Shown here: one piece after another, positions 42,302 to 58,953 of the stretch | Position numbering within the stretch: the stretch's first letter is position 1 | How the letters are laid out: every line of letters starts with the position of its first letter | Origin: Agromyces soli | GTDB lineage: Bacteria > Actinomycetota > Actinomycetes > Actinomycetales > Microbacteriaceae | Length of the DNA stretch: 64,000 nucleotides | Direction of reading: 5' to 3' | Assembly (NCBI RefSeq): GCF_022811605.1 | Contig: NZ_CP094533.1 | Location: 744,001-808,000 of the forward strand | The notes under the pieces: generated by a model | Databases searched by the model: none | What the model saw: only the letters and a program-made list of their open reading frames with translations | Told to the model about the DNA's origin: nothing | Position numbers and translations under genes: made by a program

Positions 42302-43131
42302 ACGGCATGCGCGTCCTGGCATCCGAGTTCCTGAAGGTCACGACCACGCGCATGTGGTGGCTGCTCGCCATCATCATGTTCGCCTACCTCGCATTCATCG
42401 CAGGGGGCCTGGCGGCGCTCTTCGGCTTCACCATCGCGAACCCCGACGCCGCCGCAGCGACCGGCGCGTCGGCGCCGTCGCTCGGCGACATGCCGCTGGC
42501 GCCGCTCGTCTACAGCTTCGCGACCTCGATGGGCTACGTCTTCGCGGTGATCATCGGCGTGCTCGCGGTGACCGGCGAGTTCCGGCACCGCACGCTGACG
42601 GCGACGTTCCTCGCGACGCCGCAGCGCACCACGGTGCTCGGGGCGAAGCTCCTCGCGCAGCTGCCGATCGGCGCCGGGTTCGGTGTGATCGCGTTCCTCG
42701 CCTCGGTCGGGGCGGGGGCGGCGATGCTCGCCGTCTTCGGGCTCGACACGATGCTCGACCAGAGCGACACCTGGGCGATGATCGGCCGCGGCATCCTGGC
42801 GATGGCGCTGTGGGCCGCGATCGGCGCGGCGCTCGGCTCGGTCGTGCCGAACCAGGTCGCGGCGATCGTCATCGTGCTCGCCTTCACCCAGTTCGTCGAG
42901 CCGCTGCTGCGCCTCGCGACCTCCTTCTCCGACGCGACCGCCGCCATCGGCAAGTTCCTGCCCGGCTCGGCGAGCGATTCCCTCGTCGGCGCCTCGTTCT
43001 ACGCGCTGGCGACGCCGGGCGGCGCCGGGGAGATGCTCGTGTGGTGGCAGGGCGGCCTCGTGCTGCTCGGCATCGCCGTCGTGCTCGCCGTGATCGGCGG
43101 GGCCACGAGCTGGCGCCGCGACGTGTCCTGA
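42298..43131 (+). CDS. ABC-2 exporter permease
   Basis: A 277-residue membrane protein with six hydrophobic segments; the N-terminal SEFLKVTTTRMWWLLAI and the later GVLAVTGEFRHRTLTATFLATP are typical of bacitracin-resistance-type ABC-2 permeases. The GTG start overlaps the ATPase stop (GTGA). It is convergent with the large signalling operon. Confidence 0.9.
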   Translation: MNGMRVLASEFLKVTTTRMWWLLAIIMFAYLAFIAGGLAALFGFTIANPDAAAATGASAPSLGDMPLAPLVYSFATSMGYVFAVIIGVLAVTGEFRHRTLTATFLATPQRTTVLGAKLLAQLPIGAGFGVIAFLASVGAGAAMLAVFGLDTMLDQSDTWAMIGRGILAMALWAAIGAALGSVVPNQVAAIVIVLAFTQFVEPLLRLATSFSDATAAIGKFLPGSASDSLVGASFYALATPGGAGEMLVWWQGGLVLLGIAVVLAVIGGATSWRRDVS

Positions 43132-43203
43132 CCACGGCAGGATGCCGCGCCGGGCGTCGTCCTGAGCGGCGCCTGCACCGAGGCTCGCGAGCCGCGGCGC
43201 GCG

Positions 43204-43863
43204 TCAGCCGAAGAGCGACCGCCAGAGGATCGAACCGACGGCGATGAGGCCGGCGAGCCCGAGCGCCCCGGCGACCACGACGGCGACGAGCGCCCCGACG
43301 GCCGAGCGTCGGCTGCGGCGGGCGACGGAGGGCAGCGGGGCGGCCGCGTCCCGGGTCGGGCCCGGGCCCTCGCCGAGTTCCGGGATCGGCATCCGCAGCG
43401 GCTCGCCGGTGCGGGCCGGATAGCGGTCGAGCACGCCGACGCCCGGACCCTGCTCGGCGGTGCGCAGCACCTCGTCCGAGACCGGCGCGGGCGCGGGCTC
43501 ACGACGACGGCGACGCCGGTCCGGAGTCTTCAGCACGGGTTCCGCGGGGGTCACGACCGCTTCGGCCGCCGTGCCGGGCTCGGCGCGCTCGGCGGCCTCG
43601 GCGCGCTCGGCCGAGGCGCCGCGGTCGACGACACGGGTCTCGTCGACTTCGCCGCCGCCCGTGCGGTCGACGACGACGGTCGCCTCCTCGGGCCGGTCGG
43701 CCGTGTCGGCATCGGCCGGGTCCCAGTCCGGTTCCGGTTCGAGCGAGGCGCCGGCGAGGCGCTCGGCGGTGCGCTCGACGATGACGGTCGCGTCCTCGAC
43801 CTCGTCGTGCGCGTCGACGCCGCCGAGCGGAGTCGCCTCGCTCCGTGCGCGCTCCTCGCTCAC
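43204..43863 (-). CDS. Tail-anchored protein with repeated threonine motifs, last gene of the kinase/MoxR operon
   Basis: A 219-residue protein of no family I recognise. The N-terminal half is acidic and contains three similar motifs: EDATVIVERT (Thr26), EEATVVVDRT (Thr62) and DETRVVDRG (Thr76). These resemble phosphothreonine sites read by FHA domains and recur in the FHA protein of the same operon. A basic RRRRRR cluster follows near residue 107, and a single C-terminal transmembrane helix (about residues 187-212) leaves almost no outside residues. The GTG start overlaps the PP2C stop by 4 nt. A kinase substrate and membrane docking protein is a reasonable inference. Confidence 0.7.
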   Translation of the reverse strand: MSEERARSEATPLGGVDAHDEVEDATVIVERTAERLAGASLEPEPDWDPADADTADRPEEATVVVDRTGGGEVDETRVVDRGASAERAEAAERAEPGTAAEAVVTPAEPVLKTPDRRRRRREPAPAPVSDEVLRTAEQGPGVGVLDRYPARTGEPLRMPIPELGEGPGPTRDAAAPLPSVARRSRRSAVGALVAVVVAGALGLAGLIAVGSILWRSLFG

Positions 43864-44696
43864 GAGGCCGCCCGACGCACCGGGATCGTCGTGTGGTCGT
43901 CGGCCTCCTCGCCGTCCGCCGCGGGGCGGATCGAGGTGGTGCCGTCGCCGAGTTCCTCGATGCCGCCGGAGATGACGTCGACGACGACGACCGTGATGTT
44001 GTCGCGGCCGCCCGCCTGTCGGGCGCGCTGCACGAGCGCCTGCGCGGCGGATTCGGGCCGACCGCTCATGGTCAGCGTCGCCCGGATGCCCTCGTCGCTC
44101 ACCTCGGCGGTGAGCCCGTCGGAGCAGAGCAGCAGCCGCTCGCCGTTCACGACGGGCAGCAGCCAGCTGTCCGCGGTGCTGTCCGGGGCGCCGATCGCCC
44201 GGGTGATGACGTTGCGGCGGTCGAAGCTCGCGAGGTCCTCGCGCCTCATGGCGCCGCGGTCGATGAGCTCCTGACCGAGGGAGTGGTCGACGGTGAGCTG
44301 CTCCAGCTCCGTGCCGTGGTGCCGGTAGACGCGCGAGTCGCCGACGTTGAACACGAGCCACGCGGGCTCGCCCTCGTCCTCGATGAGCACGACGCCCGTC
44401 ACCGTGCTGCCCGCGCCCCGGTCGGTCTCGGCGGCCACCTTCGCGACCTCGTCCGCGGCCGCGGTCAGCGCGTCGCGCACGGCGCCCACGGTCGCAGCGG
44501 GCCGGCCGGCCACGTGGCGACGGAACGCCTCCACGACGGCGGCGCTCGCCCGGTCGCCCGCCTCGTACCCGCCCATCCCGTCGGCGACGAGGAAGACCGG
44601 CCACTCGGCGAGGGCGGAGTCCTCGTTCGCGCGTCGGACGAGGCCGACGTCGGTGGCGACGGCGGCGGCGACGGTGACGGCGTGCGGGTCGGTCAT
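43860..44696 (-). CDS. PP2C-type Ser/Thr protein phosphatase
   Basis: A 278-residue PPM phosphatase with all metal-binding segments: VRRANEDSALAEW, FLVADGMGGYEAGDRAS, LLLCSDGLTAEVSDE and GGRDNITVVVVD. It removes phosphate from Ser/Thr proteins in the cytoplasm and should oppose the operon's kinase. It overlaps the FHA gene by 4 nt upstream and the small tail-anchored gene by 4 nt downstream. It has no transmembrane segment, unlike PstP. Confidence 0.93.
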   Translation of the reverse strand: MTDPHAVTVAAAVATDVGLVRRANEDSALAEWPVFLVADGMGGYEAGDRASAAVVEAFRRHVAGRPAATVGAVRDALTAAADEVAKVAAETDRGAGSTVTGVVLIEDEGEPAWLVFNVGDSRVYRHHGTELEQLTVDHSLGQELIDRGAMRREDLASFDRRNVITRAIGAPDSTADSWLLPVVNGERLLLCSDGLTAEVSDEGIRATLTMSGRPESAAQALVQRARQAGGRDNITVVVVDVISGGIEELGDGTTSIRPAADGEEADDHTTIPVRRAAS

Positions 44697-46192
44697 ACGG
44701 GGCCGGTCCTCTCGGCCTCGGCGCGAAGGATCCGCAGGCCCAGCGTGCCGAGCACGAGCCGTTCGGCGACCGGCGTCGGGACGCCGGGGTCGATGAGCTG
44801 CTCCTCGCCGAAGCGGTCGGGCACGAGGACGCCGTTCGTCGAACCGAGATCGACGACGGTCCACTGCTCGCCGTCGCGGCGCAGCTCGGCGTGCGTCTTC
44901 GAGAGCGTGCGGCTGGAGTCGGGCACGATGAGCCGCTGCTCGCCGTCGCCGACCTGGCGCGGGTTGCGGCCGAGCACGACGAGCGCGGCGTCGAGGGGCA
45001 GGCGGGCGCCCTCATCGGTGACGAGGATCCAGGTGATGCGCGGGCGCCGCTCGACGACGACGGTGCGGTCGATCGGGTCCTCTTCGGCCGGGGCGACCAT
45101 GATGGTGGCCGCGTCGGCGATCTCGTCGTCGGCCGGCGGGCTGAAGGCCGGCTCGGCCCGGGCGGATGCCGCGAACGCGGAGGCTGCTCCCGCGAACATC
45201 GAGGCCGAGTCGGCGAAGGCGGAGGCGGACTCCACGAAGGCCGGCCCGGGCGGCATCGGCTCGATGCGGTTCGGCTCGGCGGGCGGGGCGGGCGCGGCCG
45301 GGGCGGGCGCGGCCGGGGCGGGCGCGGCCGGCGACGCGGCCGGCGCGACGGGAGCCGCCGGCGGCGCAGCGGGCGCAGCGGGCGCAGCGGGCGGCGCGAA
45401 CGCCGGAGCGGCGGGCGGCGCCGCCGGAGCAGGCGGCTGCACCGGGGCGGCGGGCTGCGCGACGGGCGCGGCCGGCTGCTGCGGCGGCGGAGCCGGCGGC
45501 AGCGTGCCGCCGGCGGGCGGAGCGACGGGCGGCACGGCGAAGCTCGGCGGCACGATGGGTGCGGCGGCCGGAGCCGCGGGGGCCGGGCGGGCGGTCGCCG
45601 GCGCGGGCGCCGAGAACGGCGCGTGCGCGGGAGCCTGCCCCGATGCACCGTGTCCCGGTGCACCGGCCACGAAGGGCTCCTGCGACGGCAGGAACGCGGA
45701 GCCCTGCGGGGCGACGGGCGGGATGGCGCCTGGCTGGCCCGCCGCGAGCGGCCCCTGGGCGACGGGCGAGGGTCCGGTGTTCGTGCCGAACGGCTTCGGC
45801 AACCGCCCGCGCTCGGGATCGGGCGCGGCGCCGAGGGCCAGCATCGTCGCCCACACCGGGGGCAGCAGGATGCCGACGACCGTCGTGCCGACCCCGCGCC
45901 AGCACTGCGTCGTCACCCGGTGCACCGCGAGGATGCGGAAGTACAGCCCGACGAGCTGCACGATCGGCACGTACAGCAGGATGGCCGCCCACTTGGGCTG
46001 CCCGCCGAGGCCGAAGAGCTGCATCTCGTTGTAGACCGGCACCCACGCCGACCAGGCGGGAAGGCCGAACTTCTGGAAGACGCGGGCGAGCATCGCGGCG
46101 TACCAGACGTAGAGTCCGAGCGCGACGACGAACCAGACCAGCGTCGTCACGAGCATGACGACGGCGAACTGCTGGGAATCGGCGGGGGTCAT
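44693..46192 (-). CDS. DUF5684 membrane domain - Pro/Ala linker - FHA domain protein
   Basis: A 499-residue protein. Residues 1-115 have three transmembrane helices and match the DUF5684 pattern (FGLPAWSAWVPVYNEMQLF). Residues about 130-340 are a Pro/Ala-rich low-complexity linker. Residues about 360-380 carry two threonine motifs (AATIMVAP, DRTVVVERR). Residues about 388-490 are an FHA domain with the phosphothreonine contacts LGRNP, SRTLSKTHAEL and DLGSTNG. It should be the membrane-bound reader of phosphorylation by the operon's kinase. The ATG overlaps the stop of the upstream transglutaminase-like gene. Confidence 0.88.
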   Translation of the reverse strand: MTPADSQQFAVVMLVTTLVWFVVALGLYVWYAAMLARVFQKFGLPAWSAWVPVYNEMQLFGLGGQPKWAAILLYVPIVQLVGLYFRILAVHRVTTQCWRGVGTTVVGILLPPVWATMLALGAAPDPERGRLPKPFGTNTGPSPVAQGPLAAGQPGAIPPVAPQGSAFLPSQEPFVAGAPGHGASGQAPAHAPFSAPAPATARPAPAAPAAAPIVPPSFAVPPVAPPAGGTLPPAPPPQQPAAPVAQPAAPVQPPAPAAPPAAPAFAPPAAPAAPAAPPAAPVAPAASPAAPAPAAPAPAAPAPPAEPNRIEPMPPGPAFVESASAFADSASMFAGAASAFAASARAEPAFSPPADDEIADAATIMVAPAEEDPIDRTVVVERRPRITWILVTDEGARLPLDAALVVLGRNPRQVGDGEQRLIVPDSSRTLSKTHAELRRDGEQWTVVDLGSTNGVLVPDRFGEEQLIDPGVPTPVAERLVLGTLGLRILRAEAERTGPV

Positions 46193-48738
46193 CTGGCGGG
46201 CTCCTCCGTGAGAACACGTGCGGGTCGGATTGTACGCAGGAATGACGCGAACGACAGCATCACGCCGAGACGGCGGGGGGCGCCGTCTCGGCCGCGCAGG
46301 GCCTCGGTCTCCTGGTCGACGATGGCCCACGCGGCATCCGCGTCGGCCGGGCTCGGCGGGTCGCCGGCGAAGACGGCCCGCTCGACGAGCGCGGCGAGCG
46401 CGGCGGCGGCCGGCCGGCCGCTGGCCCGCGCGGTCGCCGAGCGGGTGCCGGCCTCGCCACTCAGGACCCCCTCGTCGACGTAGCGGTCGACGAGCTCGTC
46501 CCAGGCGCCGACGATCCGGACCTCGGGCGCGGGCTCGCGTCGGCGCGCGGCGCGGCGCCAGCGCTTCGCCGCCAGCAGCACGAGCACCGGCAGGAGCAGG
46601 CAGAGCAGGGCCGCGAGCCCGAGGCCCGTCCACTTCAGCACGGCGAAGAGCAGGGACAGGTCCGGCCCGCCCTCCTCGACGGGCGCCGCCTCCGATTCAC
46701 TGGCGTCGCTCTGCGCGGGCGGCGGGTCGAGCGTGTCGGTGTCGGGGCGCTCGGGGCGGGTGGGATGCTGCGGCAGCTGCTCGCCCTCCTTGATGAAGCT
46801 CGGCGCCACCTCGTGCTGCGGCGTGACGTCCACCGTCGCCCAGTCGCCGTTCGGCGAGCGCACCTCGACCCAGGCGGCGAGCGCACCGCCCGGGCAGACC
46901 TCGGTGCAGCGCTCGACGCCGTCGACCTCCTCGGCGCCCGCGAGCCGAAAGCCGAGCACGACCCGCGACTCGAAGCCGAGGTAGCGGGCGAGCAGCGCGA
47001 CGGCGGCGGCGAACTGCTCGTCGTCGCCGACGCCGGCGACGAGCTCGGCGTCGCCGGCCTGCTCCCCCGCGAGCCGTTGCTGATCCACGAGCTGCGTGAA
47101 CAGGGCCTCGACCCGCGCCGTCGAGTGGCCGGAGTAGCTCGGCAGGAACGCGTAGCCGGAGCCCATCCGCTCGATCCAACCGGCCGCCGCCTCGCCGTCG
47201 CCGGCCGCGTGGCTGAGGTACCCGCGCGCCCGAAGCCGTTCCGCGAGGGTCGCGAGGCCCTCGGCGGACCGTGGCTGCGCCTGCAGCTCGGCCCAGGCGG
47301 TGAGCGCGGGATAGCGCTCCTCGTCGATGCCCGACTGCGTCGCCGGGCTGCCGAGCGTCTCGAGGCCGCGGAGCTCGTCGGCGTCCGCGACGACGCGGTA
47401 GCGGTCGCCGGCGATGAGGCCGCGCTCGGCGTCGCGCCCCGTGGCGCCCGGGAGCGGAGCGATCGTGATCGCGGTGGCGCCGTCGGCCGAGCGGTGGAAG
47501 CCGTCCTCGAGCGCGACGGCGCGGGGGCCGGAGAAGTCGGGTGCGGCCTGCAGCCCGGCGGGCGCCGGCACCCAGAGCCCGCGGTAGCCGTCGCCGACGG
47601 TCAGCTCGAACTCGGCGTCGCCCGCTCCCGCGGCGCGGGGCAGGCGGGTGAAGCGGGTGCTCGGGTCGGCGGGGTCCGCCGCGACCTGGAACACCTCGCC
47701 GTCGAACTCGTCGAGGGTCGCGATGCGCACCCGTTCGACGCCCGTCGTCTCGCCGTCGAGCTCGAGCCAGGGCTCGTCGATGCGCTCGCTCGTGAAGGCG
47801 GCTCGGTAGCCGGACAGCGGCGACGGCGCCTGCCGCACGGCGAGCTCGGGCTCGATGCGGTCGCGCAGCGCGCTGCGGTCGGCGAGCTCCGCGGCGGCGG
47901 GCGCGACGGCGGCGCCGGCGATGAGCGCGACGGCGACGAGCCCCGCGGCGACCGCACGGCGTCGCACCGCGACCCAGCCGGAGAGCCCGGCCCGCTGCAC
48001 GGTGCCGGCGGTGGCCCGCTGCAGGGCGATCCGGCGTGCGGAGCGCGAGCGGAGCAGCAGCCAGCCGACCGCGGCGAGCAGTCCGCCGACGCCGACGAGG
48101 AGCTCCCTGGGCGCCGGCACCTGCACGGGGCCGAGCACGAGCGGGGCGCTCAGCGCGCTCGAGCCGAAGACGATGCCGAACGCCGTCATGCCGAAGCCGA
48201 CGAGCACCGCGAGCGGCGACCAGCCGCGATCGGGCAGGACGAGCAGTCCACCGACGAGCGAGCCGAGCAGGATGACGAGCAGGAACGGCACGAGCACCGC
48301 CTGGTACTCGCCGAGCGGCAGCGCGAGGGTGAGCAGCTGCTTCCAGCCGACGATCACGCCGACGAAGCCGTCGCGGACGCCCTCGACGATGCGCAGCGGG
48401 CTGCCGAGCGCCGAGGGGATGGCCACGGGGACCACGACGAGCGCGTAGCCGACGACGGCGAACGCGGCGACGAGCAGCGCGCCGACGACGCCGCGCCAGC
48501 GCAGCAGCCGGGCGACGACCGCGAGACCGAGGCCGAGCACGAGGCCGACGGCGGCGACGACGATCATGCGCGGGGAGCCGTAGACCGGCCACGCCGCGAT
48601 CGTCGCCAGCACGACGGCCACGACGACGTAGCCGAGGCCGAGCAGGCTCCGCTCGTCGAAGGGCGAGGGGCCGCGATCGAAGCGCTCGGGCCGGTCGGCG
48701 CGACGGCCGCGGGCCGGCACGGCCTCCTGCGCGCTCAT
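46189..48738 (-). CDS. TgpA-like transglutaminase-fold membrane protein lacking catalytic residues
   Basis: An 849-residue protein: about seven N-terminal helices (residues 35-270), a large outside region with the transglutaminase core (about residues 500-650), one C-terminal helix (about residues 700-735) and a cytoplasmic tail. The core aligns with TgpA, but the nucleophile Cys is Asp573 (GDDEQFAAAVALLARYLG) and the His is Ala621 (ALAAWVEV); only Asp637 (TVDVTP) remains. It is therefore predicted to be a pseudoenzyme acting by binding. The ATG at 48738 overlaps the DUF58 stop by 4 nt. Confidence 0.88.
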   Translation of the reverse strand: MSAQEAVPARGRRADRPERFDRGPSPFDERSLLGLGYVVVAVVLATIAAWPVYGSPRMIVVAAVGLVLGLGLAVVARLLRWRGVVGALLVAAFAVVGYALVVVPVAIPSALGSPLRIVEGVRDGFVGVIVGWKQLLTLALPLGEYQAVLVPFLLVILLGSLVGGLLVLPDRGWSPLAVLVGFGMTAFGIVFGSSALSAPLVLGPVQVPAPRELLVGVGGLLAAVGWLLLRSRSARRIALQRATAGTVQRAGLSGWVAVRRRAVAAGLVAVALIAGAAVAPAAAELADRSALRDRIEPELAVRQAPSPLSGYRAAFTSERIDEPWLELDGETTGVERVRIATLDEFDGEVFQVAADPADPSTRFTRLPRAAGAGDAEFELTVGDGYRGLWVPAPAGLQAAPDFSGPRAVALEDGFHRSADGATAITIAPLPGATGRDAERGLIAGDRYRVVADADELRGLETLGSPATQSGIDEERYPALTAWAELQAQPRSAEGLATLAERLRARGYLSHAAGDGEAAAGWIERMGSGYAFLPSYSGHSTARVEALFTQLVDQQRLAGEQAGDAELVAGVGDDEQFAAAVALLARYLGFESRVVLGFRLAGAEEVDGVERCTEVCPGGALAAWVEVRSPNGDWATVDVTPQHEVAPSFIKEGEQLPQHPTRPERPDTDTLDPPPAQSDASESEAAPVEEGGPDLSLLFAVLKWTGLGLAALLCLLLPVLVLLAAKRWRRAARRREPAPEVRIVGAWDELVDRYVDEGVLSGEAGTRSATARASGRPAAAALAALVERAVFAGDPPSPADADAAWAIVDQETEALRGRDGAPRRLGVMLSFASFLRTIRPARVLTEEPAR

Positions 48739-50123
48739 CGGGCCGCTCCTCTCGCGAGCAGCTGGCCGAGGTCGGCGAGCTCGGCGATCGTGAGCACGGC
48801 GAGTTCGCGCGAGCGCCGGAGTCCGGGCTCCGCGCCCGGCTCGCAGCGCACCGCGACGATCGCGATGCCGGGCGGCAGAGCCACGGCCGCGCGGCGCAGC
48901 CGAGCGGTCGGCACGTCGGCACCGGTCACGAGGTAGGCGATCGACAGATCGGCGAAGGAGCGCGCGACGAGCGCGGCGAGCGACTCGAGGCGGATGACCC
49001 GGGCGTCGGCGCCCTCGGCGGAGCCGCCCTCGATCGCGGAGCTCGCGTCGAGCAGCACGCGCGGCGAGACGGTCGGCAGGGAGCGCATGGCCTGCACGCT
49101 GCCGCGGTCGGCGGGATCGAGCTCGGCGCTCACGCCGACGAGCACGTCGCGGCCCTCGCGGACGCCCTGCACGCCGAGCGAGGCGGCGGCGCTGACGGCG
49201 AGCTCGAACTCGTCCTCGTCGCGGTAGCCGTCGAGGTCGAGGTCGAGGAGCACGGCGATGCGGGCGTGCCGGGACTCCTCGTACTGGCGCACCATGAGGG
49301 TGCCGGTGCGGGCGGTCGCCTTCCAGTGGATGTGCCGCTGCGAGTCGCCGGGCTCGTACTCGCGGACGGCGTGGAAGGAAAGGTCGGCGTCGACCAGCTG
49401 GCTCGACGGTGCGCCCTCGAGGTCGCGGATGAGTCCGGCGCTCGAGGGCGGCAGCTGCGCGGTCACGGGGTGCACGTACACGCGCTGCACCTCGGGCCAG
49501 CTGAGCTCGCGGCGGAGGATGCGCAGCGGGTCGCCGCGCGAGACCGTCATCGGTCCGACGTCGATGACGCCGCGACGCTGCGCGGCGATGACGAGCTCCT
49601 CGTGGTGGTGCGCGCCCGCGCGCAGCAGCGGCACGTGGGCCTCGACGAGGCCCCGGCCGACGGGGAGGTCGACGACGCCGGGCAGCGCCAGCCGGCGGCC
49701 CTCGTTCACCAGGTCGAGACCGCCGCGGATCTCGGAGCCCGCGACCACCCGGTCGCGGTCGAGCTCGAGCCGCACCCGGTAGTCGTGCGCGCCGAGCAGG
49801 AACGGCACGCAGGCGAGCAGCAGCACGCCGGCGATGGCCGCGACGACCCACGCCTCCATCCAGCCGAACGCCCACCCCGCGGCGACCCCGCCCACGGTGA
49901 TCGCGGCGAGCAGCACGCCCGCGGGCGACACCGTCTCGCGCACCCAGCGCACGGCTCGGCCCGCGGCATCCCCCGCGCGCCGCCAGCCGCGGCGCAGGCG
50001 CACCGCGCCGCCCGTGATGCCACCGAGACGGGTCGCCGAACGACGCGTGACGCTGGCGCCGCGCGTCGAGGTGACGGTGTCGTGGCCCGCGGGTTCGCGG
50101 AGCAGGCGTTCGGGTGCGCTCAC
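48735..50123 (-). CDS. DUF58 (VWA-like) protein
   Basis: A 462-residue protein with two helices near residues 65-110 and the DUF58 signature YEPGDSQRHIHWKATARTGT followed by MVRQYEESRHARIAVLLDLD. The metal-ion adhesion site expected in VWA folds is degenerate (DLDLDG instead of DxSxS). DUF58 proteins are the usual partners of MoxR ATPases. The GTG start overlaps the moxR stop by 4 nt. Confidence 0.92.
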   Translation of the reverse strand: MSAPERLLREPAGHDTVTSTRGASVTRRSATRLGGITGGAVRLRRGWRRAGDAAGRAVRWVRETVSPAGVLLAAITVGGVAAGWAFGWMEAWVVAAIAGVLLLACVPFLLGAHDYRVRLELDRDRVVAGSEIRGGLDLVNEGRRLALPGVVDLPVGRGLVEAHVPLLRAGAHHHEELVIAAQRRGVIDVGPMTVSRGDPLRILRRELSWPEVQRVYVHPVTAQLPPSSAGLIRDLEGAPSSQLVDADLSFHAVREYEPGDSQRHIHWKATARTGTLMVRQYEESRHARIAVLLDLDLDGYRDEDEFELAVSAAASLGVQGVREGRDVLVGVSAELDPADRGSVQAMRSLPTVSPRVLLDASSAIEGGSAEGADARVIRLESLAALVARSFADLSIAYLVTGADVPTARLRRAAVALPPGIAIVAVRCEPGAEPGLRRSRELAVLTIAELADLGQLLARGAAR

Positions 50124-51085
50124 GCCACCCCGTTCTCCCTCGGTGCGGGCACGTCGAGCAGGATCTGGTTGACGACCGCGTTCTGGGTGACCCCGTCGAA
50201 CTCGGCCTCCGGCTCGAGCACGAGGCGGTGGGCGAGGGCGGCGACGGCGAGCTCGCGCACGTCGTCGGGGGTCGCGTAGCTGCGGCCCGCGGCGGCGGCC
50301 CAGGTCATCGCGAGGCGCGACAGGGCGATCGCCCCGCGCACGCTCACGCCGAGGCGCACCTCGGAGGCGCGACGGGTCGCGTCGACGAGCCGCATGATGT
50401 AGTCGGAGACGAGCGGGTTCACGTAGACGCTGCGCGAGAGCTCCGTCATCGCGACGATCGTGTCGGTGCCGACGATGGCCTCGAGCTCGCCCTTCGGTGT
50501 GCCGACGCCCTGGAGGATGCGCATCGTCGCGGCCTCGTCGGGGTAGCCGATGGAGGTCTTGATCGAGAAGCGGTCGAGCTGCGCCTCCGGCAGACGGTAG
50601 GTGCCGCCCTGCTCGATCGGGTTCTGCGTCGCGATCACGAGGAAGGGGGTGCCGACCGGGCGGGTGACGCCGTCGATCGTGACCTGCCCCTCCTCCATCA
50701 CTTCGAGCAGCGCCGACTGCGTCTTCGGGCTGGCCCGGTTGATCTCGTCGGCGAGCACGATGTTCGCGAACACCGGCCCGGCGTGGAACTCGAACTCGCC
50801 GGACTTCTGGTCGAACACGGTGATGCCGGTGACGTCGCCGGGCAGCAGGTCGGGCGTGAACTGGATGCGCGAGCTCGTGCCGTGGATCGTCTGCCCGATC
50901 GCCCGCGCGAGCGCGGTCTTGCCGGTGCCCGGCGCGTCCTCGAGCAGCACGTGGCCGCCCGAGACCGCGGTCGCGAGCACGAGCTCGATCACGTGGCGCT
51001 TGCCGAGCAGCGCCTGCTCGACGTTGTCGGCGATGAGCCCGAACGTCTCGTGGAACCAGGCGGCCTGTTCCGGGGCGATGGTCAT
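50120..51085 (-). CDS. moxR: MoxR family AAA+ ATPase
   Basis: A 321-residue ATPase: Walker A EDAPGTGKTALARAIG, Walker B IVLADEINRASPKTQSALLEVMEEGQ, sensor segment IATQNPIEQGGTYRLPEAQLDRF. MoxR proteins are chaperone-like and act on VWA-type partners, here the DUF58 product. The ATG lies 46 nt after the giant gene's stop, the only clear gap inside the operon besides the leader. Confidence 0.94.
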   Translation of the reverse strand: MTIAPEQAAWFHETFGLIADNVEQALLGKRHVIELVLATAVSGGHVLLEDAPGTGKTALARAIGQTIHGTSSRIQFTPDLLPGDVTGITVFDQKSGEFEFHAGPVFANIVLADEINRASPKTQSALLEVMEEGQVTIDGVTRPVGTPFLVIATQNPIEQGGTYRLPEAQLDRFSIKTSIGYPDEAATMRILQGVGTPKGELEAIVGTDTIVAMTELSRSVYVNPLVSDYIMRLVDATRRASEVRLGVSVRGAIALSRLAMTWAAAAGRSYATPDDVRELAVAALAHRLVLEPEAEFDGVTQNAVVNQILLDVPAPRENGVA

Positions 51086-51131
51086 CGGTGGTCCTCTCGG
51101 CGGGGATCGGTGCTGGGGAAGGCGGGGCGGG

Positions 51132-54100
51132 TCATCCGCCCGTCTCCGGGTCGGGGCCGGTCGGCGGCTCGGGGTCCGGCGGATCTGGTGCCGGGCAGAC
51201 GTCGATGTCGCGGGTGATGTCGGCGAGATCGCCGTAGGCCCCGTCGAAGCCGACGACGACGGTCGCCTTCGTCGGCGAGTTCGCAGCGTCGCGGCTCCAG
51301 CTGCGCAGCACGGCCGAGCCGGCGCCGGCGCTCGTCACGGTCACGCCCGCCTCGGCGAGCGAGACGTTCGACTCGTTCGCCGGGATCGCCACGCAGGAGC
51401 CGCTGAAGTCGACCGACACCGGGGCCGGCGCGGTGGTCGCCGACACCTCGATGCGGTTCGAGCAGTACAGCCCGCCCCAGGTGTTGTGGCACTGGCGCGC
51501 GAAGACCTGCCCCGGGTTCGACCAGTCGTTCACGGCGGCGCCGAAGTCCGTGGTCCAGTTCGTGCTGCTCGAGGAGTACTCGACGTGGAAGTCCTCGATC
51601 GCGGCGAGGCTCGGGCCCGTCACCTCGTAGCGGTAGTGCCGGCCGCTCTGCGCCGGCGACGTCGCCACGGTGTAGCTCGCCTCGCCCGTCGGAGTGTCGG
51701 CGCTCGTGTAGACGCGCACCTCGCCGACGCTGGAGGCGACGACGCCGAAGCCGTTCGAGCCGCAGGCCTTGATCAGGTAGCGCTTGCGCTCGTCGAGGCC
51801 GTCGATGTCGGGCGAGGTGGACACCTTCGCCGAGCCGGCGCTGTACGTGAGCGCCCCGCTGCCGTCGGCCGAGCACTGCGGCTCGCTGCCCGAGCGCCAC
51901 GCGAAGTACACCATCTCGGCGGCCTTGGCGCTGTGGTTCTGCTGCAGCCCGACGCCGGAGATGCGGATGGAGGAGTTCGTCGTCGCCGTGGCCGCGATGC
52001 CGTTCGGGTCGAAGAACGGGGCGCCGGCGACCGTCACGGGCGTCGCCGTCTGCCCGCCCTCGTTGTTGCCGCGGCCGGTCGGCGGCGTGTAGACGCTGAT
52101 CGGCACGAGCGTGATCGTCTGCGGGCCCGGGGCGAGCGTCAGATCGGCCGTGGTCTGCTTGCCGGTGCGGTCGATGGTCTGCCCGGTCTCCTGCACGCGG
52201 AACGAGCGGGCGTCGGCATCCGCCGTGATCGTGAGCTGCACCACACCGGTGCCCTGCGAGGTCGTGCCGGGCCGGTAGACGGGCGTCGCGACGACGCCGT
52301 CGACGGTCGGCGCCTCGTAGGCCCAGGCCTCGACCGAGCTCGTCGCCGCGGAGGCGCCGACGCCGTTCACGGCGCGCGCCGAGTACGAGTGGCGCTCACC
52401 GGGCACGAGGCCGCCGACGACGCACAGCCAGACCCCGGGGGCGCCGGGGCGGCAGTCGGCGCCGACGGAGCGACCGCCCTCGAGGATCTCGACGCCCGTC
52501 ACCGCCGGGTGGGCCCGCAGCGCCTCGCCGAGCGAGACCTCCATCGTCACCGAGTTCTTCGTGTAGTCGGCGGTCGCGATCGACGCCGGCGCCTGCGGCA
52601 GCCCGAGCAGGTCGACGGTCACCCGCCCCTCGCCGGTGCGGCCCTGCGCGTCGGCCACCGTGAACGGCACCACGCACTCGCCGCCGTAGGCGTTCTGGCC
52701 GCTCGGCCAGGTGACCGTGATGGCGGTGTCGCCCTGCATGCCGATCCCCGCGACGGGGCACGAGGTCGAGCCGATCGAGCGGAGCTTCAGGCCCGAGCCG
52801 GTCTTGCCCGCGAAGGGATCGTACTCGCCGGAGACCCCGACGACCGGGATCGAGCAGGAGCTGCCCTGGTCGACCGAGCACTGCTTCGTGAACACCGCGC
52901 CGCGCGGCTGGTCGGCCGGCGCCTGCCCCACGACGAGGGTGATCGCGGAGGTGAGCCCGCCGAAGGCGCTCACGCCGATGGTGACAGTCTCGCGGGTGCC
53001 CGGCCGGGCATCCGCCCTGGCCTCCGCGGTGACCTTCGAGCCCTGCTGGGTGACCGTGAAGGCGCTGCCCTGGTAGGTCACGGCGTAGTCGAGCTTGCTG
53101 CGGTCGCCCTCGCGGCCGCCCTCCCAGCTCGTCATCTCGTCGTAGAGGCGCACGGTCTCGCTCGCGCCGGGCGCGACCGTGCGGGAGACGGCGGAGAGGA
53201 TGGCCTGCGGGTCCTTCGGGATGACGGCGACGGGCACGGCGACCTGCGACCACTCGCGCTGCCCGGGCAGCCGCACGCCGACGAGGCAGAGGTCCGACCA
53301 GGGGGCGCCGGCGCCGGCACGGTACTCGACGCTCGTGCCGCCCGCGGGCGTGCAGCTCGCGGCCTTGCGCTGCACGGGGAACTCGCCGTCGCCGGCCACC
53401 TCGACGGCGTCGCCCGAGGCGAGGTCGAGGAGCTTCGCGACGTCGAAGGTCTTCGAGCCCTCCTCCTTCACCTCGACGGGGCTGACGTCGCCGCGCAACT
53501 GCACGCGCAGCTCGTCGGCCGCGGGCACGATGAGGAAGCCGAACGCCTCGACCTCGCCGCCGGCGGTGTTCTTGCCGCTCAGGCGGAACGGCACGAGGGC
53601 CCCGTCCTTCGGCATCGGGCCCCGGATGCGCTGGCCCTCGACCGTGTAGCCGGCGGACGCCGCGGCCTTGCCCCACAGTTCGAGCTTCAGCGTGCGGGCG
53701 TCGCCGGAGGCCCAGACGACCCGGCCGCTGACGACGTCGAGGCCGCGCTGCTCGAGGTCGAGCCGCGTGCGCGCGGTGACGACGGTGTCGTTCACGACCG
53801 GCACGTCGGTCGAGGCGGCCTCCGTGACGTTCACCACGATGAGCCCCTCGGCCGTCGAGGAGGTGCGCTCGGAGGCGACGGTGTAGCGGTAGGAGTTCGT
53901 GCCCACCACGTCGCCGGCGCGCAGCACCACGCGGCGGTCGCCGAGGGAGGTCTGGTCGTCGATGAGCGCGAGGAGGCGCTGGTACTCGGGCGTGCCCTCC
54001 GGCGCGTTCGGCACGAGCTTGACGAGCCGCAGCGCGCCCTGCGCCGGGTCGAGGTCGTTGCCGGCCGGGTCGACGGTCACCGGGGAGTCGGAGGAGCGCT

Positions 54101-57100
54101 GCACGCGCACGTAGTCGCTGAACGTCACGGGCGCCGCGTCGGTGACCGCGGCGGTCAGCACGCCGACGCGCACGGCCGCGCTGCCGGTGGCGCCCGAGGC
54201 ATCCCGCACCGTGTACTCGAAGCTCGGCTGCGTGTCACCGGTGCCGTCGGCCGGGGCGGTGTAGACGATCGCGTCGCCCTCGGCGGAGATCGTCGCGACG
54301 CCGAGACCCTTGCCCGGCTGCGTGACCGAGGTGAGCACGGTGCGATCGCCGTCCGGGTCCATGCCGGCGGCCGGCACGGGAATCGACACGCTCTGCCCGC
54401 TCAGCACGCGGGCGACGAGCGAGCGCGGCTGCGGGGCGCGGTTCGCGCCGTCGGGCAGCACCGTCACGGTCACCGTGGAGTGGTCGAGCCGATCGGGCGC
54501 CTGCTCCAGGCCGACGGCGTAGCCGAGCTCGTAGGTGCCCGGCGTCTTCGGCGCCAGGTAGCGGATGCTGCTGCCGGAGGCGAAGACGAGCTCGCCCGCG
54601 GTGCCGGAGCCGGTGACCTCGGGATGGACGACGAGCCGCTCCGCGCGGGGGCTGACGTCGTTCGCGGTCACGGGGATGCTGACGAGCTCGCCCGCGCGCA
54701 TCGTCACGGTATCGGGCATGGCGATCGGGCTGAGCCCGGCCGTGCGGGCGACGAGGAAGACGCTGAGGTCGCCCACGGCGGTGCCGCCCGCGCCGTCGGA
54801 CACGGTGACCCGTGCGCGGCCGACGAGCCCGGGCTGGCCGTCGCGCGTCGCCCCGGCCACCCGCACCTGGGACTGGCCGACGAGGCCGATGTTCAGCTCG
54901 GGCGAGACCGAGACGGCGTCGGTGACCATGAGCACCCGACCGCCGGTGTTCTGCACGGCGCCGAGCACGTCGACCATGGTGTCCTCGCCCTGCCGGACGA
55001 AGGCGGTCATCGGCGCGATCGCGATCGGCGCGCCCGGCGGGGCCACGGTGACGCGGATGGTCGCGGCCTGCTCGGCGCGCGTCACCAGGTCCTGCACCGT
55101 GAAGGTGGCGGTGTACGCCCCCGGCTCGGCCGCGCGCAGCTCGACCTGGCCCGCCGCGGCGTTCGGCACGACCTCGAGGCCGGCGCCCTCCGCCGAGGCG
55201 GTCGGCACGGCGTCGAGGAGGCGCAACGAACCGGAGCCGCCGGAGGCGTGGTCGGCGATCGAGACGATGGCGGTGCGCCCGGCGCCGGCGGTCACCGCGA
55301 CCGGCGAGACGTCGAGGGCGGCGCTCGAGGTCACCCGCACGTCGAGGGTGGCCTCGGCGCTCGCGCCGTGCACGTCGGCGACGGTGATCTTGACCGGCAC
55401 GGAGGTGCCTGCGGCGTTCGGGTCGGTGTGCCGGATGGCGACGCGGCCGTTGCCCATGGGCACGACCGTGACCGGGGCCGCCGGGTCGAGCGGCTCGGCG
55501 CCGGCGAGCACGAAGGCGTCGCCCTCCGGGTCGACCCAGCCCGACAGCACGTCGACGATCGCGGTGCCGCCCGGCATCAGCTGCGGCGACGGCCACTGCT
55601 GCACGCACCCCTCGACGCCGCACCAGACGGGCGCAGAGTTCTGGTCGTCGGGCACCACCGTGAGCGTGACGGTGACGGGCGCGGAGCTCGCCTGCCCGTC
55701 GGTGACGGCGTAGCTGAAGGTGGTCGAGCCGCTCGTCGCCCGCACCCGCACGGTGGGCGTCTGGTCGTTCGCGACGAGCGAGAGCTCGCCGAAGCCGGGA
55801 TCGGCGAGGCCGCCGGCCATCGACGCACGGTCGACGGTGAGCACGTCCTTCGAGTTGGGATCGTGGTCGTTCAGCAGCACGGGCAGTTCGACCTGCTGGC
55901 CCGCACGCACCCCGAAGGAGTCGGCGACGGCGACGGGCGGCTCCTGCCGCGCGAGGTCCTCCACCTGCTGGGTGCCGACCTTGTCCTCGACCTCGTCGTC
56001 GAGGTCCCACTGCTCGAGCGGCACGAGCCGGCCGTCGGGCAGCGTCCAGAGCAGGCCGCCCGCGGTCTCGTTCAGCACCGCGCGGTCGCCGTTCGTGCGC
56101 AGCACGGGCGAGAGCGAGGCGGAGGCATCCGTCTCGCCGGCGGGCATGGCGAGCGCCACCGACTCGCCCGTGTCGCTGAACCAGGCGCTGCCGCCGTCGG
56201 GCGCGAGCCAGGCCGCCACGACGGTGCCGTCCGCCACGACGGGGCGCGCCGGCGTGCCCGCGTCGCTCGCGACCCGCTCCGGGTCGGCGCCGTCGAGCGG
56301 GATCGACAGCAGCCCCTCGGCGTCGGCGAGGTAGGCGGTGTCGCCGGACGCCGCGCTCTGCTGCAGCAGGGCGTCGGCGCCGACGTCGAGCTGCGCGGGC
56401 GCGCCGCCGTCGACCCAGACCCGGCCGTCGGCCGCATCGACGAGAAGCCAGTGCTCGCCGACGACCGCGAGCTGCACCCCGGCGTCCGCCGCGGGAGGGG
56501 ACTCGATCGGCGTCGGGTCGGTGAAGCGGCCGCGCTCGGCGTCGTAGCCGCGCACCGCGCCCTCGCGGGCGGAGTACATGACGAGCTGCCCCTCCGGCGA
56601 GATGCCGATGGCGTTGGCCGCGTACGTCTCGTCGTCTGCGGCGCCCTGCTCTTCGCCGGCGAACGGGTCGACCGGCACCGGCTGCTCGCTCTCGATCCGG
56701 CCGACGTGCACCGTGCCGGTGTCGGTGCGGTACGCGATCCAGTCGCCCGCCGACTGCACCTCGCGCGTGCCGACCGGGGTCGGGGTGCCGCCCACGCCCT
56801 CGTCGCCGACGAGGTCGACGGGATCGGCCACGTTCACCGGCCAGCGCTGCCCGAGCCCTTGACTGTAGACCGAGGCGCGCGGGCCGGACTGCACGATCGC
56901 GCTGGGGTCGTCGACGTCGCGCACGACGTCGATCTCGGCGAGGTCGGTGTTCACCCGGGCGTACTGGCCCGCGTCGCGGCTCACCCACACCGAGGTCTCG
57001 AGCCGGGGCACCTGCTGCGCCTCGTACCCGCTCGCGGTGACCGCGAGGGTCACCACGGTCGCGACGGCGGCGACGCCGGCCACGGCGCCGATGATCGCCC

Positions 57101-57146
57101 CACGGGAGGGTCGGCGCGCGGTGCGATCGCGCTGCGCGGGGGCCAT
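51132..57146 (-). CDS. Giant Ig/cadherin-like surface protein with N-terminal membrane anchor
   Basis: A 2004-residue protein. A cytoplasmic basic N-terminus of about 18 residues is followed by one transmembrane helix (about residues 19-41) that should act as a signal anchor. Residues about 45-395 look like a beta-propeller-type region. From about residue 400, successive cadherin/Ig-like units appear with PPVAVADSF, VLLNDHDPN, PVTANDVSP and DPAGNDLDP motifs. FN3-like segments occupy about residues 1510-1850, and the C-terminus is Pro/Asp-rich without a sortase motif. The start overlaps the kinase stop. It is probably the exported output or sensor of the operon. Confidence 0.88.
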   Translation of the reverse strand: MAPAQRDRTARRPSRGAIIGAVAGVAAVATVVTLAVTASGYEAQQVPRLETSVWVSRDAGQYARVNTDLAEIDVVRDVDDPSAIVQSGPRASVYSQGLGQRWPVNVADPVDLVGDEGVGGTPTPVGTREVQSAGDWIAYRTDTGTVHVGRIESEQPVPVDPFAGEEQGAADDETYAANAIGISPEGQLVMYSAREGAVRGYDAERGRFTDPTPIESPPAADAGVQLAVVGEHWLLVDAADGRVWVDGGAPAQLDVGADALLQQSAASGDTAYLADAEGLLSIPLDGADPERVASDAGTPARPVVADGTVVAAWLAPDGGSAWFSDTGESVALAMPAGETDASASLSPVLRTNGDRAVLNETAGGLLWTLPDGRLVPLEQWDLDDEVEDKVGTQQVEDLARQEPPVAVADSFGVRAGQQVELPVLLNDHDPNSKDVLTVDRASMAGGLADPGFGELSLVANDQTPTVRVRATSGSTTFSYAVTDGQASSAPVTVTLTVVPDDQNSAPVWCGVEGCVQQWPSPQLMPGGTAIVDVLSGWVDPEGDAFVLAGAEPLDPAAPVTVVPMGNGRVAIRHTDPNAAGTSVPVKITVADVHGASAEATLDVRVTSSAALDVSPVAVTAGAGRTAIVSIADHASGGSGSLRLLDAVPTASAEGAGLEVVPNAAAGQVELRAAEPGAYTATFTVQDLVTRAEQAATIRVTVAPPGAPIAIAPMTAFVRQGEDTMVDVLGAVQNTGGRVLMVTDAVSVSPELNIGLVGQSQVRVAGATRDGQPGLVGRARVTVSDGAGGTAVGDLSVFLVARTAGLSPIAMPDTVTMRAGELVSIPVTANDVSPRAERLVVHPEVTGSGTAGELVFASGSSIRYLAPKTPGTYELGYAVGLEQAPDRLDHSTVTVTVLPDGANRAPQPRSLVARVLSGQSVSIPVPAAGMDPDGDRTVLTSVTQPGKGLGVATISAEGDAIVYTAPADGTGDTQPSFEYTVRDASGATGSAAVRVGVLTAAVTDAAPVTFSDYVRVQRSSDSPVTVDPAGNDLDPAQGALRLVKLVPNAPEGTPEYQRLLALIDDQTSLGDRRVVLRAGDVVGTNSYRYTVASERTSSTAEGLIVVNVTEAASTDVPVVNDTVVTARTRLDLEQRGLDVVSGRVVWASGDARTLKLELWGKAAASAGYTVEGQRIRGPMPKDGALVPFRLSGKNTAGGEVEAFGFLIVPAADELRVQLRGDVSPVEVKEEGSKTFDVAKLLDLASGDAVEVAGDGEFPVQRKAASCTPAGGTSVEYRAGAGAPWSDLCLVGVRLPGQREWSQVAVPVAVIPKDPQAILSAVSRTVAPGASETVRLYDEMTSWEGGREGDRSKLDYAVTYQGSAFTVTQQGSKVTAEARADARPGTRETVTIGVSAFGGLTSAITLVVGQAPADQPRGAVFTKQCSVDQGSSCSIPVVGVSGEYDPFAGKTGSGLKLRSIGSTSCPVAGIGMQGDTAITVTWPSGQNAYGGECVVPFTVADAQGRTGEGRVTVDLLGLPQAPASIATADYTKNSVTMEVSLGEALRAHPAVTGVEILEGGRSVGADCRPGAPGVWLCVVGGLVPGERHSYSARAVNGVGASAATSSVEAWAYEAPTVDGVVATPVYRPGTTSQGTGVVQLTITADADARSFRVQETGQTIDRTGKQTTADLTLAPGPQTITLVPISVYTPPTGRGNNEGGQTATPVTVAGAPFFDPNGIAATATTNSSIRISGVGLQQNHSAKAAEMVYFAWRSGSEPQCSADGSGALTYSAGSAKVSTSPDIDGLDERKRYLIKACGSNGFGVVASSVGEVRVYTSADTPTGEASYTVATSPAQSGRHYRYEVTGPSLAAIEDFHVEYSSSSTNWTTDFGAAVNDWSNPGQVFARQCHNTWGGLYCSNRIEVSATTAPAPVSVDFSGSCVAIPANESNVSLAEAGVTVTSAGAGSAVLRSWSRDAANSPTKATVVVGFDGAYGDLADITRDIDVCPAPDPPDPEPPTGPDPETGG

Positions 57147-58276
57147 CAGAGCACGCCCGCGAGGTTCAGGGCGACGGCGCCGGCGAGGAGGACCCCGAGG
57201 CCGGCGCCCACGCCGATGAGCGTCGGCTTCAGCCAGCCGTTGCGCGCCGGGGCGGCGGCGAGCCCGCCGTCGTCGACGATCCGCCCGCGGGGCGTCGCGG
57301 CGGACGCGGTGCGCGCGGCGAGCCGGCCGTCGGGCTTCACGGTGGAGACGACGGGTCCGCGGGTCGAGGCGTCGGCGAAGTCGATGGGAGCGGCGGCGGC
57401 CCACTCGGGGGCCGCGACCTCGAGCGTCGTCGGGGTGAGGCCGAGCTCGTACTGCGCCCAGCGCAGCTGCTCGCCGAACTCGTTCATCGAGGCGTACCGT
57501 CGCGAGGGGTCGCGCTGCATGGCGGTCGCGAGCACCGCATCGATGCGGGGCGGCACCCCGCGCGGGGAGAGCGGCGTGTACCTCGCCGAGAGCACCCGGC
57601 GGGAGAGCTGGTCGACCGTGTTGCGGGCGCGATCGGGCAGCTCGAAGGGGCTGTGGCCCGCGAGGAGCGTGTAGAGGGTCGCGCCGAGCCCCCAGATCTC
57701 GGAGGCGACGGTGCCGGTGGTCTGCTCGCCGAGCACCTCCGGCGCGCTCCACGGGATCGACATGGCGAACGCCTCGCCCTGGCCGTCGCCGATCGCGGCG
57801 GCGATGCCGAAGTCGGCGAGCACGGGGGCGCCGAGCGAGTTCAGCAGCAGGTTGCTGGGCTTGATGTCGCGGTGCAGGAGGCCGGTGCGGTGCGCGGTCT
57901 CGAGGGCGCCCGCCATCCGTACGCCGATGTCGAGCACCTCGTCGTACGGCATCGGCCCGCGTTTGGCCTTCGCGCCGAGCGAGTCGGGGCAATACTCCAT
58001 CACGAGGTACGGGCGGCCGTCCGCGGAGATCGAGGCCTGATGGATGGTGACGATCGAGGGGTGCGCGCTGAGCCTGGCCATCGCGTCGGCCTCGACCGTG
58101 AACGAGCGGCGCGCCTCGGCGTCGACGACGTCGGCGAGCAGCACCTTCACGGCGGTGACGCGGCGCGGCAGGTCCTGCTCGTAGAGGAACACGTCGGCGA
58201 AGCCGCCGGTGCCGAGCGGGCGCACGTAGCTGTAGCCCGCGAGGACGGGCGGCGCAGAGGGCAATCGCTTCGCCAC
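57146..58276 (-). CDS. Membrane Ser/Thr protein kinase (PknB-like catalytic domain)
   Basis: A 376-residue kinase: glycine loop LGTGGFADVF, lysine in AVKVLL, catalytic loop HRDIKPSNLLL, DFGIA and APE are all intact. The juxtamembrane linker carries several Thr/Ser. One C-terminal helix (about residues 350-372) ends with almost no outside domain, so it lacks PASTA-type sensing. The GTG at 58276 has GGAGGGG upstream. It is the first gene of the operon, and its stop overlaps the start of the giant protein gene (TGATG). Confidence 0.93.
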   Translation of the reverse strand: MAKRLPSAPPVLAGYSYVRPLGTGGFADVFLYEQDLPRRVTAVKVLLADVVDAEARRSFTVEADAMARLSAHPSIVTIHQASISADGRPYLVMEYCPDSLGAKAKRGPMPYDEVLDIGVRMAGALETAHRTGLLHRDIKPSNLLLNSLGAPVLADFGIAAAIGDGQGEAFAMSIPWSAPEVLGEQTTGTVASEIWGLGATLYTLLAGHSPFELPDRARNTVDQLSRRVLSARYTPLSPRGVPPRIDAVLATAMQRDPSRRYASMNEFGEQLRWAQYELGLTPTTLEVAAPEWAAAAPIDFADASTRGPVVSTVKPDGRLAARTASAATPRGRIVDDGGLAAAPARNGWLKPTLIGVGAGLGVLLAGAVALNLAGVL

Positions 58277-58371
58277 GCGGCCCCTCCCTGCCAGCTCGTC
58301 ATCGGACCGCCGACAGGCGCACCCCGTTCCGTTCTCCGAGCCCGGCCGCCGTCGTCGCGGCCCCCGGATCC

Positions 58372-58408
58372 CGCGGACACCTGCCTGCGGCGTCCGCGAG
58401 TCATCCTA
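58372..58408 (-). promoter_or_regulatory. Promoter and 5'-leader hairpin of the kinase operon
   Basis: TAGGAT on the minus strand (58403-58408) would start transcription near 58396, where CGCGGAC/GTCCGCG (58372-58378 with 58392-58398) forms a 7-bp hairpin. About 95 further nt lead to the kinase GTG. The -10 lies within the inverted repeat GTCAT-CCTAG-ATGAC (58400-58414), a possible operator. Confidence 0.4.
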
Positions 58409-58439
58409 GATGACCCGCGCTCGGGTGACGAACCCGCGG

Positions 58440-58838: not shown

Positions 58839-58856
58839 CCTGCCCGATCACCCCTG

Positions 58857-58932
58857 ACAATTCAGGAACAATCCGGCGCCGAGGCATCCGGTTCGCGGCT
58901 CGCACCGGCAGGGCGGGGCGTTCCTGAGTCGT
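58857..58932. repeat. 76-bp terminal-inverted-repeat element, family B copy 3
   Basis: It begins ACAATTCAGGAAC and ends GTTCCTGAGTCGT, each one mismatch from the ends of copies 1 and 2, and contains the word GCCGAGGCATCC. It is 15 bp shorter than the other copies and lies between the small 132-residue gene and hemL. Confidence 0.78.
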
Positions 58933-58953
58933 GTGAGGGGGTGGCGGCGCAGC

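Follow-up and report, generated by a model that had tools for sequence, protein, structure and literature searches.

What does a Hanks-type Ser/Thr kinase do in one operon with a giant surface protein and a MoxR/DUF58 module? The question is raised by eight contiguous minus-strand genes in a 64,000-nucleotide stretch of the Agromyces soli genome (contig NZ_CP094533.1, positions 744,001 to 808,000; hereafter, the window), which encode the kinase, a 2004-residue giant, MoxR, DUF58, a transglutaminase-fold protein (TG, gene tgm), a DUF5684-FHA protein, a PP2C phosphatase and a small tail-anchored protein. The host genome comprises 3.81 Mb in one contig. Judged by its sequence, the window operon represents one form of an old envelope operon of the Actinobacteria; its homologue in Bifidobacterium is known as PFNA. 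We consider it probable that kinase and PP2C write and erase a comb of phosphothreonines, a multivalent signal that would be read by the FHA protein and would gate a MoxR-DUF58-pseudo-transglutaminase machine acting for the giant.

Coordinates recomputed from the window sequence confirmed the eight-gene unit of the initial annotation, with its gene sizes and junctions: the genes contain 0 internal stops, and the junctions, in gene order, are -1, +46 and then five times -4 nt. Domain assignment with Pfam and NCBIfam supports the name given to each gene, gene 8 alone having no match (Table 1). The predicted writer, eraser and reader of threonine phosphorylation claimed for the locus are all encoded, with the key motifs of kinase, PP2C, FHA and also MoxR intact. 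The kinase had been called PASTA-less; no PASTA match is listed for it, and PknB_PASTA_kin scores 152 bits against a cut-off of 450.

Whether the kinase and the giant are merely accidental neighbours of the MoxR module was judged from other genomes. Translated search of the window's family, sampled at one genome per genus, revealed the giant in 52 of 60 genomes, frequently in two or three copies. An 18-row profile detected it at 1e-20 in 257 of 396 genomes of the order (18 of these matches do not reach 1e-80) and at 1e-30 in 16 of 296 genomes of the phylum. Long matches outside the window's class come from four genomes (G188, G255, G153, and G164), and four more rows there are short. We analyzed 83 regions, 80 around giants and three fetched earlier, chosen for spread over families and for strong giant matches rather than at random, with presence of the giant as the entry condition; genomes with weak partial matches only (e.g., G381, G391, G395, G401, G408, G430, G447, and G516) lie outside this set. 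In the synteny check proposed at the outset, giant, moxR, duf58 and tgm stand together on one strand in 74 of the 83 regions, with at least one such region in each of 15 families, and the successor found was the giant for the kinase in 59, moxR for the giant in 77, duf58 for moxR in 76 and tgm for duf58 in 79. Because this set of genes reappears in further families, some outside the window's class, the coupling of kinase, giant and MoxR module is conserved and not due to chance. The giant's strand also carries the kinase in 67 regions, FHA in 60, PP2C in 47 and all three in 37; these genes are located either upstream or downstream of the core, and some fall past the edge of the region.

In six of the 83 regions moxR does not adjoin the giant (L110, L119, L122, L124, L143, and L169), and tblastn found no MoxR in them, L119 being perhaps cut by the region edge. 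Giants without other operon genes were observed in L110 and L169 and tandem giant pairs in five regions (L111, L115, L116, L119, and L160). In L149 and L154 the giant is split over two consecutive open frames and is thus broken or mis-sequenced.

Phylogeny separates the MoxRs of the operon from others. In a tree of 48 sequences, 31 operon MoxRs and 17 other MoxRs, the latter from nine genomes searched, fall on opposite sides of one branch (support 96/98). The tree omits three of 30 loci that failed the motif filter (L277, L290, and L294) and four of the 35 search matches over the cut-off, for which there was no locus. Inside the operon clade the window sequence belongs to a subgroup (99/98) with L090, L093, L099, L145 and L291 (family f73). 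A second operon copy lies in the same genome near 2.62 Mb (2617800-2633000; L035 and L036), in B-type order, where PP2C and FHA precede the kinase.

An operon of this type has been reported from Bifidobacterium under the name PFNA (PMC8430577, PMC6803598, and PMC10688814) and described as restricted to bifidobacteria. It consists of pkb2, fn3, aaa-atp, duf58 and tgm, to which some species add prpC, a hypothetical gene and fha; all eight genes are co-transcribed in B. longum GT15 (PMC8430577). A mycobacterial moxR operon has been likened to PFNA (PMC12067865). The initial annotation had proposed a regulated surface machine of undescribed type; its conserved coupling and its writer, eraser and reader are upheld here, and the novelty of the coupling is not, the eight-gene set pkb2-fn3-aaa-atp-duf58-tgm-prpC-x-fha having been published (PMC8430577).

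A scan of named genomes with nine giants of family f68 gave 204 confirmed stretches, the best 80 of which correspond to 75 loci, all from Bifidobacterium. Four species have been listed as having the full set of eight genes (PMC8430577), and two of these, B. saguini and B. aesculapii, are represented among the loci. Seven of the eight window proteins are homologous to those of B. saguini, and the core order is identical: kinase 40% (7e-58), giant 24.5% over 1412 residues (9e-37), MoxR 56% (2e-120), DUF58 29% (4e-54), TGM 24% (1e-16), PP2C 28% (4e-15) and FHA 30% (1e-5). In the B. saguini record tgm occupies two overlapping open frames (L173:18396-20884), indicating a frame break or a sequencing error. 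The window thus shares with PFNA the core order kinase-giant-MoxR-DUF58-TGM, a MoxR of the same clade, a giant of about equal length (1994 residues in B. longum; PMC10688814) and a downstream PP2C and FHA, as in some species, in swapped order (DUF5684-FHA before PP2C).

Other features differ. The PFNA giant has two fn3 domains, whereas the window giant has no Pfam fn3 match at 0.01; the window kinase lacks an ectodomain; and the comb, a separate tail-anchored gene in the window, is an extension of MoxR in Bifidobacterium. The "hypothetical" seventh gene of some PFNA operons encodes a Leucine Rich Repeat Variant protein (L174:22552-23295; LRV_2, PF25591, 6e-37, B. colobi) not seen in the window, where gene 8 encodes the comb. 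Since its giant gave no fn3 match, we regard the window operon as a PFNA homologue and not as a PFNA operon proper. Since the named Bifidobacterium loci are clear homologues of the wider operon, the PFNA-type operon is, by this homology, not restricted to bifidobacteria. In the open-licence literature we found no publication on the operon from genera other than Bifidobacterium.

For the bifidobacterial PFNA a role in communication with the host has been proposed, with the giant as the binding partner of host cytokines and the kinase as a sensor of host signals. In B. longum an FN3 fragment does bind TNF-alpha, and exposure to this cytokine raises the expression of PFNA genes (PMC8430577 and PMC10688814). 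As an account of the operon as a whole, this proposal seems to us very improbable. The giant has the wide distribution given above, within the order, across the genera of the family and beyond the class. Moreover, fn3 occurs in a non-bifidobacterial giant (L105:3977-9862; 1.1e-13, best stretch 1579-1654) near the position of the B. colobi fn3 (1515-1587), the site of the cytokine-binding FN3 domains in Bifidobacterium; the L174 giant has fn3 as well. Because the giant is widespread and fn3 is present in L105, a host-specific origin is unlikely, and a later use in the gut is possible.

The core of the operon resembles the MoxR-DUF58-TgpA modules, with which the window has in common the three-gene order, the TgpA fold, the MoxR Walker A and B motifs and the DUF58 domain. 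The Cys-His-Asp triad of active modules, in contrast, is not kept in the operon TG. None of the 149 aligned TG sequences with a residue at the catalytic position keeps Cys, and among 150 sequences His is kept in 11 and Asp in 48. A stand-alone MoxR-DUF58-TG set of the same genome, near 2.646 Mb (L036:10465-17910), has Cys and His intact. The transglutaminase fold claimed for the window protein therefore stands without its catalytic Cys, and the protein is a predicted pseudoenzyme whose active site has been lost. With Cys gone, cross-linking by it is unlikely; the rival reading, in which the kinase would control an active transglutaminase that builds the giant into a surface layer by cross-linking, deserves hardly any credence. 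A DxSxS metal ion-dependent adhesion site (MIDAS) was found in 0 of 154 operon DUF58s. We dropped its loss as a special trait of the operon, given that one of the two stand-alone DUF58s of the genome also lacks it.

MoxR is also paired with a vWA-like partner in ternary conflict systems (PMC7159879), and the window MoxR matches their bpMoxR at 1.8e-10. It fits AAA_3 far better (Table 1). In those systems a propeller is fused to vWA, and the term DUF58 is absent from that text; the components differ, and we rejected the MoxR-vWA-propeller conflict system as the identity of the operon.

How might the kinase act on such a module? The predicted tail anchor of gene 8 stands, and the protein can now be described as a repeat protein. 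In relatives, too, the gene after PP2C encodes a tail-anchored protein of tandem motifs, such as DERTVIVDRG (L090), DDETVVTGRP (L096), EEATVFVARR (L093, 802 residues) and DDHTVMSTRR (L148). Sites were counted with a loose motif around Thr (Asp/Glu in -3 to -1, hydrophobic in +1 to +3, Arg in +4 to +6) in a list of 29 tail proteins, the adjacency search behind which covered selected loci. These comb proteins contain 157 sites against 26.5 in shuffles, and 25 of the 29 reach p < 0.05 singly. Arg is found at +5 of 162 of the 410 Thr with full context, a 3.8-fold excess. The acceptor is Thr in 142 cases and Ser in four, with 443 Thr and 388 Ser available. Site density per 1000 residues is 21 in 12 combs, 1.4-1.5 in PP2C and FHA (37 sites v 20.0 and 66 v 19.8 in shuffles, respectively) and 0.2-0.9 in kinase, DUF58, TGM, MoxR and giant. 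A six-frame scan of 17,348 open reading frames from 158 loci and the window, requiring at least three strict sites and a C-terminal transmembrane segment, returned 15 matches; 12 are the comb gene of A-type operons and three are not (L155, L193, and L234). Two listed combs were missed, L094 (repeats ending in Gln or Lys) and L109 (frame without a C-terminal transmembrane segment). Gene 8 and its relatives thus look like combs that are tethered to the membrane and could offer their phosphorylation sites as a grip to a phosphate-reading partner. In the open-licence literature we found no report of a comparable phosphothreonine comb in bacteria.

The window kinase ends within its single transmembrane segment (residues 351-376), leaving no extracellular domain. 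Kinases could be examined at 57 of 84 loci (the 83 regions and the window): 17 end 1-8 residues past the membrane segment, 36 have more than 15 residues outside (mostly ~90-150) and in four no such segment was found. The comb list covers 12 of the 17 loci with short-ended kinases and 0 of the 36 with ectodomains. Off the list, L091 has a comb by the six-frame scan and L145 a two-motif tail. The six-frame scan of all loci agrees with this division, except for an FHA open reading frame in L155; for comb loci L248-L267 the kinase lies outside the fetched stretch. It looks new that comb genes accompany kinases predicted to lack an extracellular domain, where both can be classed.

If such a kinase has no sensor of its own, the giant might provide one, the two forming a split receptor with the membrane-proximal propeller as the sensing part. 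The kinase lies directly ahead of the giant in most regions, as counted above, and A-type kinases end just past the membrane. A model of the giant's first 420 residues consists of a transmembrane helix and a beta-propeller (predicted local distance difference test score, pLDDT, 88.8), the remainder being Ig/cadherin-like. No Pfam propeller family exceeds the cut-off in this region. Its profile matches the PknD sensor 1rwi weakly (9.5e-4) and Pizza designs, which we take to derive from PknD, at 3.6e-7; a weak match of this kind is obtainable from any repeat propeller. The structures most similar to the model are WD40 and other propellers, many of them eight-bladed, whereas the PknD propeller has six blades, and a PknD-like six-bladed sensor was accordingly set back to the rank of a rival. 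Other versions of the operon retain both a kinase ectodomain and the propeller. A split receptor is, on balance, improbable.

The evidence for a comb read by the FHA protein extends to reader and eraser. Of the 27 FHA proteins encoded in comb loci, 26 have a copy of the motif 19-32 residues ahead of the FHA Arg (30-32 in 23); at L093, the exception, the other FHA gene of the locus carries one. Linker-comb similarity is higher for pairs from one locus than for pairs from different loci (15.37 v 12.17; p 0.0002, or 0.012 when taken within groups; 24 loci, with relatedness only partly controlled). PP2C tails of relatives often have a similar motif, a frequency given without a chance control. The window reader has the phosphopeptide-binding patterns GR...SxxH and NG, and its best PDB sequence matches are GarA/Rv1827 (E 0.002). 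A Thr site on the stretch ahead of FHA is common to GarA/OdhI and the window reader; in OdhI, phosphorylation of Thr14 works as a switch, together with a phosphatase (PMC9769921). Unlike GarA/OdhI, the window reader has hydrophobic DUF5684 segments, and its motif is repeated in a partner protein. We found no paper on DUF5684 in the open-licence literature. A comparable FHA-vWA logic is known from the ArnA(FHA)-ArnB(vWA)-ArnC(kinase) system of Sulfolobus, where sequential phosphorylation of the partner drives FHA binding; that system regulates archaeal motility, and its abstract mentions no MoxR, giant or comb (PMC12852372).

In Bifidobacterium the comb is instead carried by MoxR. The N-terminal extension of MoxR averages 151 residues there, compared with 4-67 in other families, and repeats DxTxLS (e.g., L225). 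The 82 Bifidobacterium loci, which include second copies of some genomes, give 73 distinct extensions with 199 sites against 7.6 expected (p < 0.05 in 58 of 73) and a Thr:Ser ratio of 199:3 among acceptors. The FHA linker conforms to [DES]W[DE][SG]T[VI]L[SA] in 46 of 47 FHA proteins, 34-36 residues ahead of the FHA Arg, and to the strict form DW[DE][SG]TVLS in 35 of the 47. A loose tail motif was found in 45 of 46 PP2Cs, again without a chance control. In 35 loci that yielded no FHA, extensions are likewise present, with fewer sites per length. Very dense Thr repeats mark the MoxR N-termini of single species (L239, L232, and L137), and repeat number varies strongly among species. Pkb2 of B. 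longum phosphorylates the MoxR encoded in PFNA (PMC8430577). Because this published in-operon substrate is MoxR, the comb of the extension is a good candidate for the Pkb2 phosphorylation sites.

A comb of this composition could instead be a mere kinase sink or an acidic disordered spacer, a buffer that sets a threshold while FHA reads something else. Mycobacterial PknA sites favor acidic residues at -1 and -3 to -6, Leu/Val at +3 and Lys/Arg at +4 (PMC7164672); the acidic-Thr-hydrophobic-basic pattern of the comb matches this published preference in part, a point that counts for a sink as well as for a comb read by FHA. The matching motif of the FHA linker, on the other hand, keeps an almost constant spacing and agrees in subtype with the comb encoded at the same locus, and the Thr bias in both placements suits an FHA partner. 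FHA domains prefer phospho-Thr over Ser. On this evidence a sink or spacer is unlikely.

Several observations count against a comb code read by FHA. The four combs outside significance, that of the window included, have single-protein p values of 0.054-0.091, the window comb with only three copies reaching 0.06 under the loose motif. The pattern also accepts Val 32 and Ala 16 times in the acceptor place (besides Gly 3, Gln 3, and Pro 2), VVV runs explaining part. The giant, outside the cell, likewise exceeds shuffles in loose sites (277 v 177). The motif owes part of its definition to the very sequences in which sites were counted, and the relatedness of these sequences makes them non-independent. 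No comb was found with the sensorless kinases of L095, L097 and L099. A comb search beyond Bifidobacterium and the A-type loci yielded five weak open reading frames but no consistent gene and no clear comb; therefore, the comb is not essential to the machine. Finally, the preference for Thr could reflect the kinase rather than FHA.

The features of the window operon are collected in Table 1. A gap of 163 nt separates the kinase from the next upstream gene; a minus-strand gene of 132 residues at window positions 58440-58838, upstream of the kinase, has no Pfam or NCBIfam match. No sigma-70-like promoter was found in 43000-59400, where two terminator-like sites compare with 1.2 expected.

Table 1. 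Genes and sequence features of the operon (window positions).
Feature	Position	Strand	Remarks
Kinase, Hanks-type Ser/Thr, 376 residues	57146..58276	-	Pkinase 1.2e-39; transmembrane segment 351-376; VAIK, HRD and DFG present
Giant surface protein, 2004 residues, membrane-anchored	51132..57146	-	N-terminal transmembrane segment, beta-propeller, Ig/cadherin repeats; Big_9 8.4e-34, Cadherin_4, Cadherin_5
Predicted beta-propeller of giant, residues 49-375	56022..57002	-	
moxR, AAA+ ATPase, 321 residues	50120..51085	-	AAA_3 4.6e-61; Walker A and B; within operon clade
duf58, membrane protein, 462 residues	48735..50123	-	DUF58 1.8e-12; without DxSxS MIDAS
Predicted pseudo-transglutaminase, 849 residues	46189..48738	-	Transglut_core 1.9e-8; N-terminal transmembrane bundle, TgpA-like ectodomain, transmembrane segment, helical C-terminus
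Dead active site GDDEQFA, residues 571-577	47008..47028	-	Asp in place of catalytic Cys
DUF5684-FHA reader, 499 residues	44693..46192	-	DUF5684 1.2e-9, FHA 3.3e-8; membrane-embedded N-terminus (hydrophobic segments)
FHA linker Thr motif PIDRTVVVERRP, Thr377	45041..45076	-	32 residues ahead of FHA Arg
PP2C phosphatase, 278 residues	43860..44696	-	PP2C_2 2e-11; Stp1_PP2C_phos 8.7e-56, under its curated cut-off
PP2C C-terminal Thr motif DDHTTIPVRRAAS	43863..43901	-	similar tails among relatives
Gene 8, tail-anchored comb protein, 219 residues	43204..43863	-	hydrophobic segment 186-215; no Pfam match
Comb region, three copies (EDATVIVER, EEATVVVDR, VDETRVVDR)	43621..43800	-	

In the mechanism that we favor, the comb threonines would be phosphorylated by the operon kinase and the phosphates removed by PP2C. 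FHA would then bind the multiply phosphorylated comb, for which the FHA protein's linker site would be a competitor, much as a Thr N-terminal to the domain switches OdhI/GarA (PMC9769921). The docked FHA-comb state would assemble or activate the MoxR-DUF58-pseudo-transglutaminase machine, which may remodel, place or pull on the giant as its client, the TgpA-like domain serving as a putative non-catalytic coupling part across the membrane. A more specific version, for which we see the case as evenly balanced, is that the comb, whether part of a tail-anchored protein or of the N-terminal region of MoxR, is a tunable docking strip for FHA that gates the machine, with repeat number setting the response and the comb gene replacing kinase-borne sensing where the ectodomain has been lost.

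The type of operon is already known; what looks new is its breadth, the pseudo-transglutaminase and a comb code with two placements. With the comb, the action of kinase, phosphatase and FHA on the MoxR module can be framed as a concrete hypothesis, in which each site can be mutated singly. For the regulation and the clients of MoxR-DUF58 systems, one operon here holds a regulator, a reader and a candidate client.

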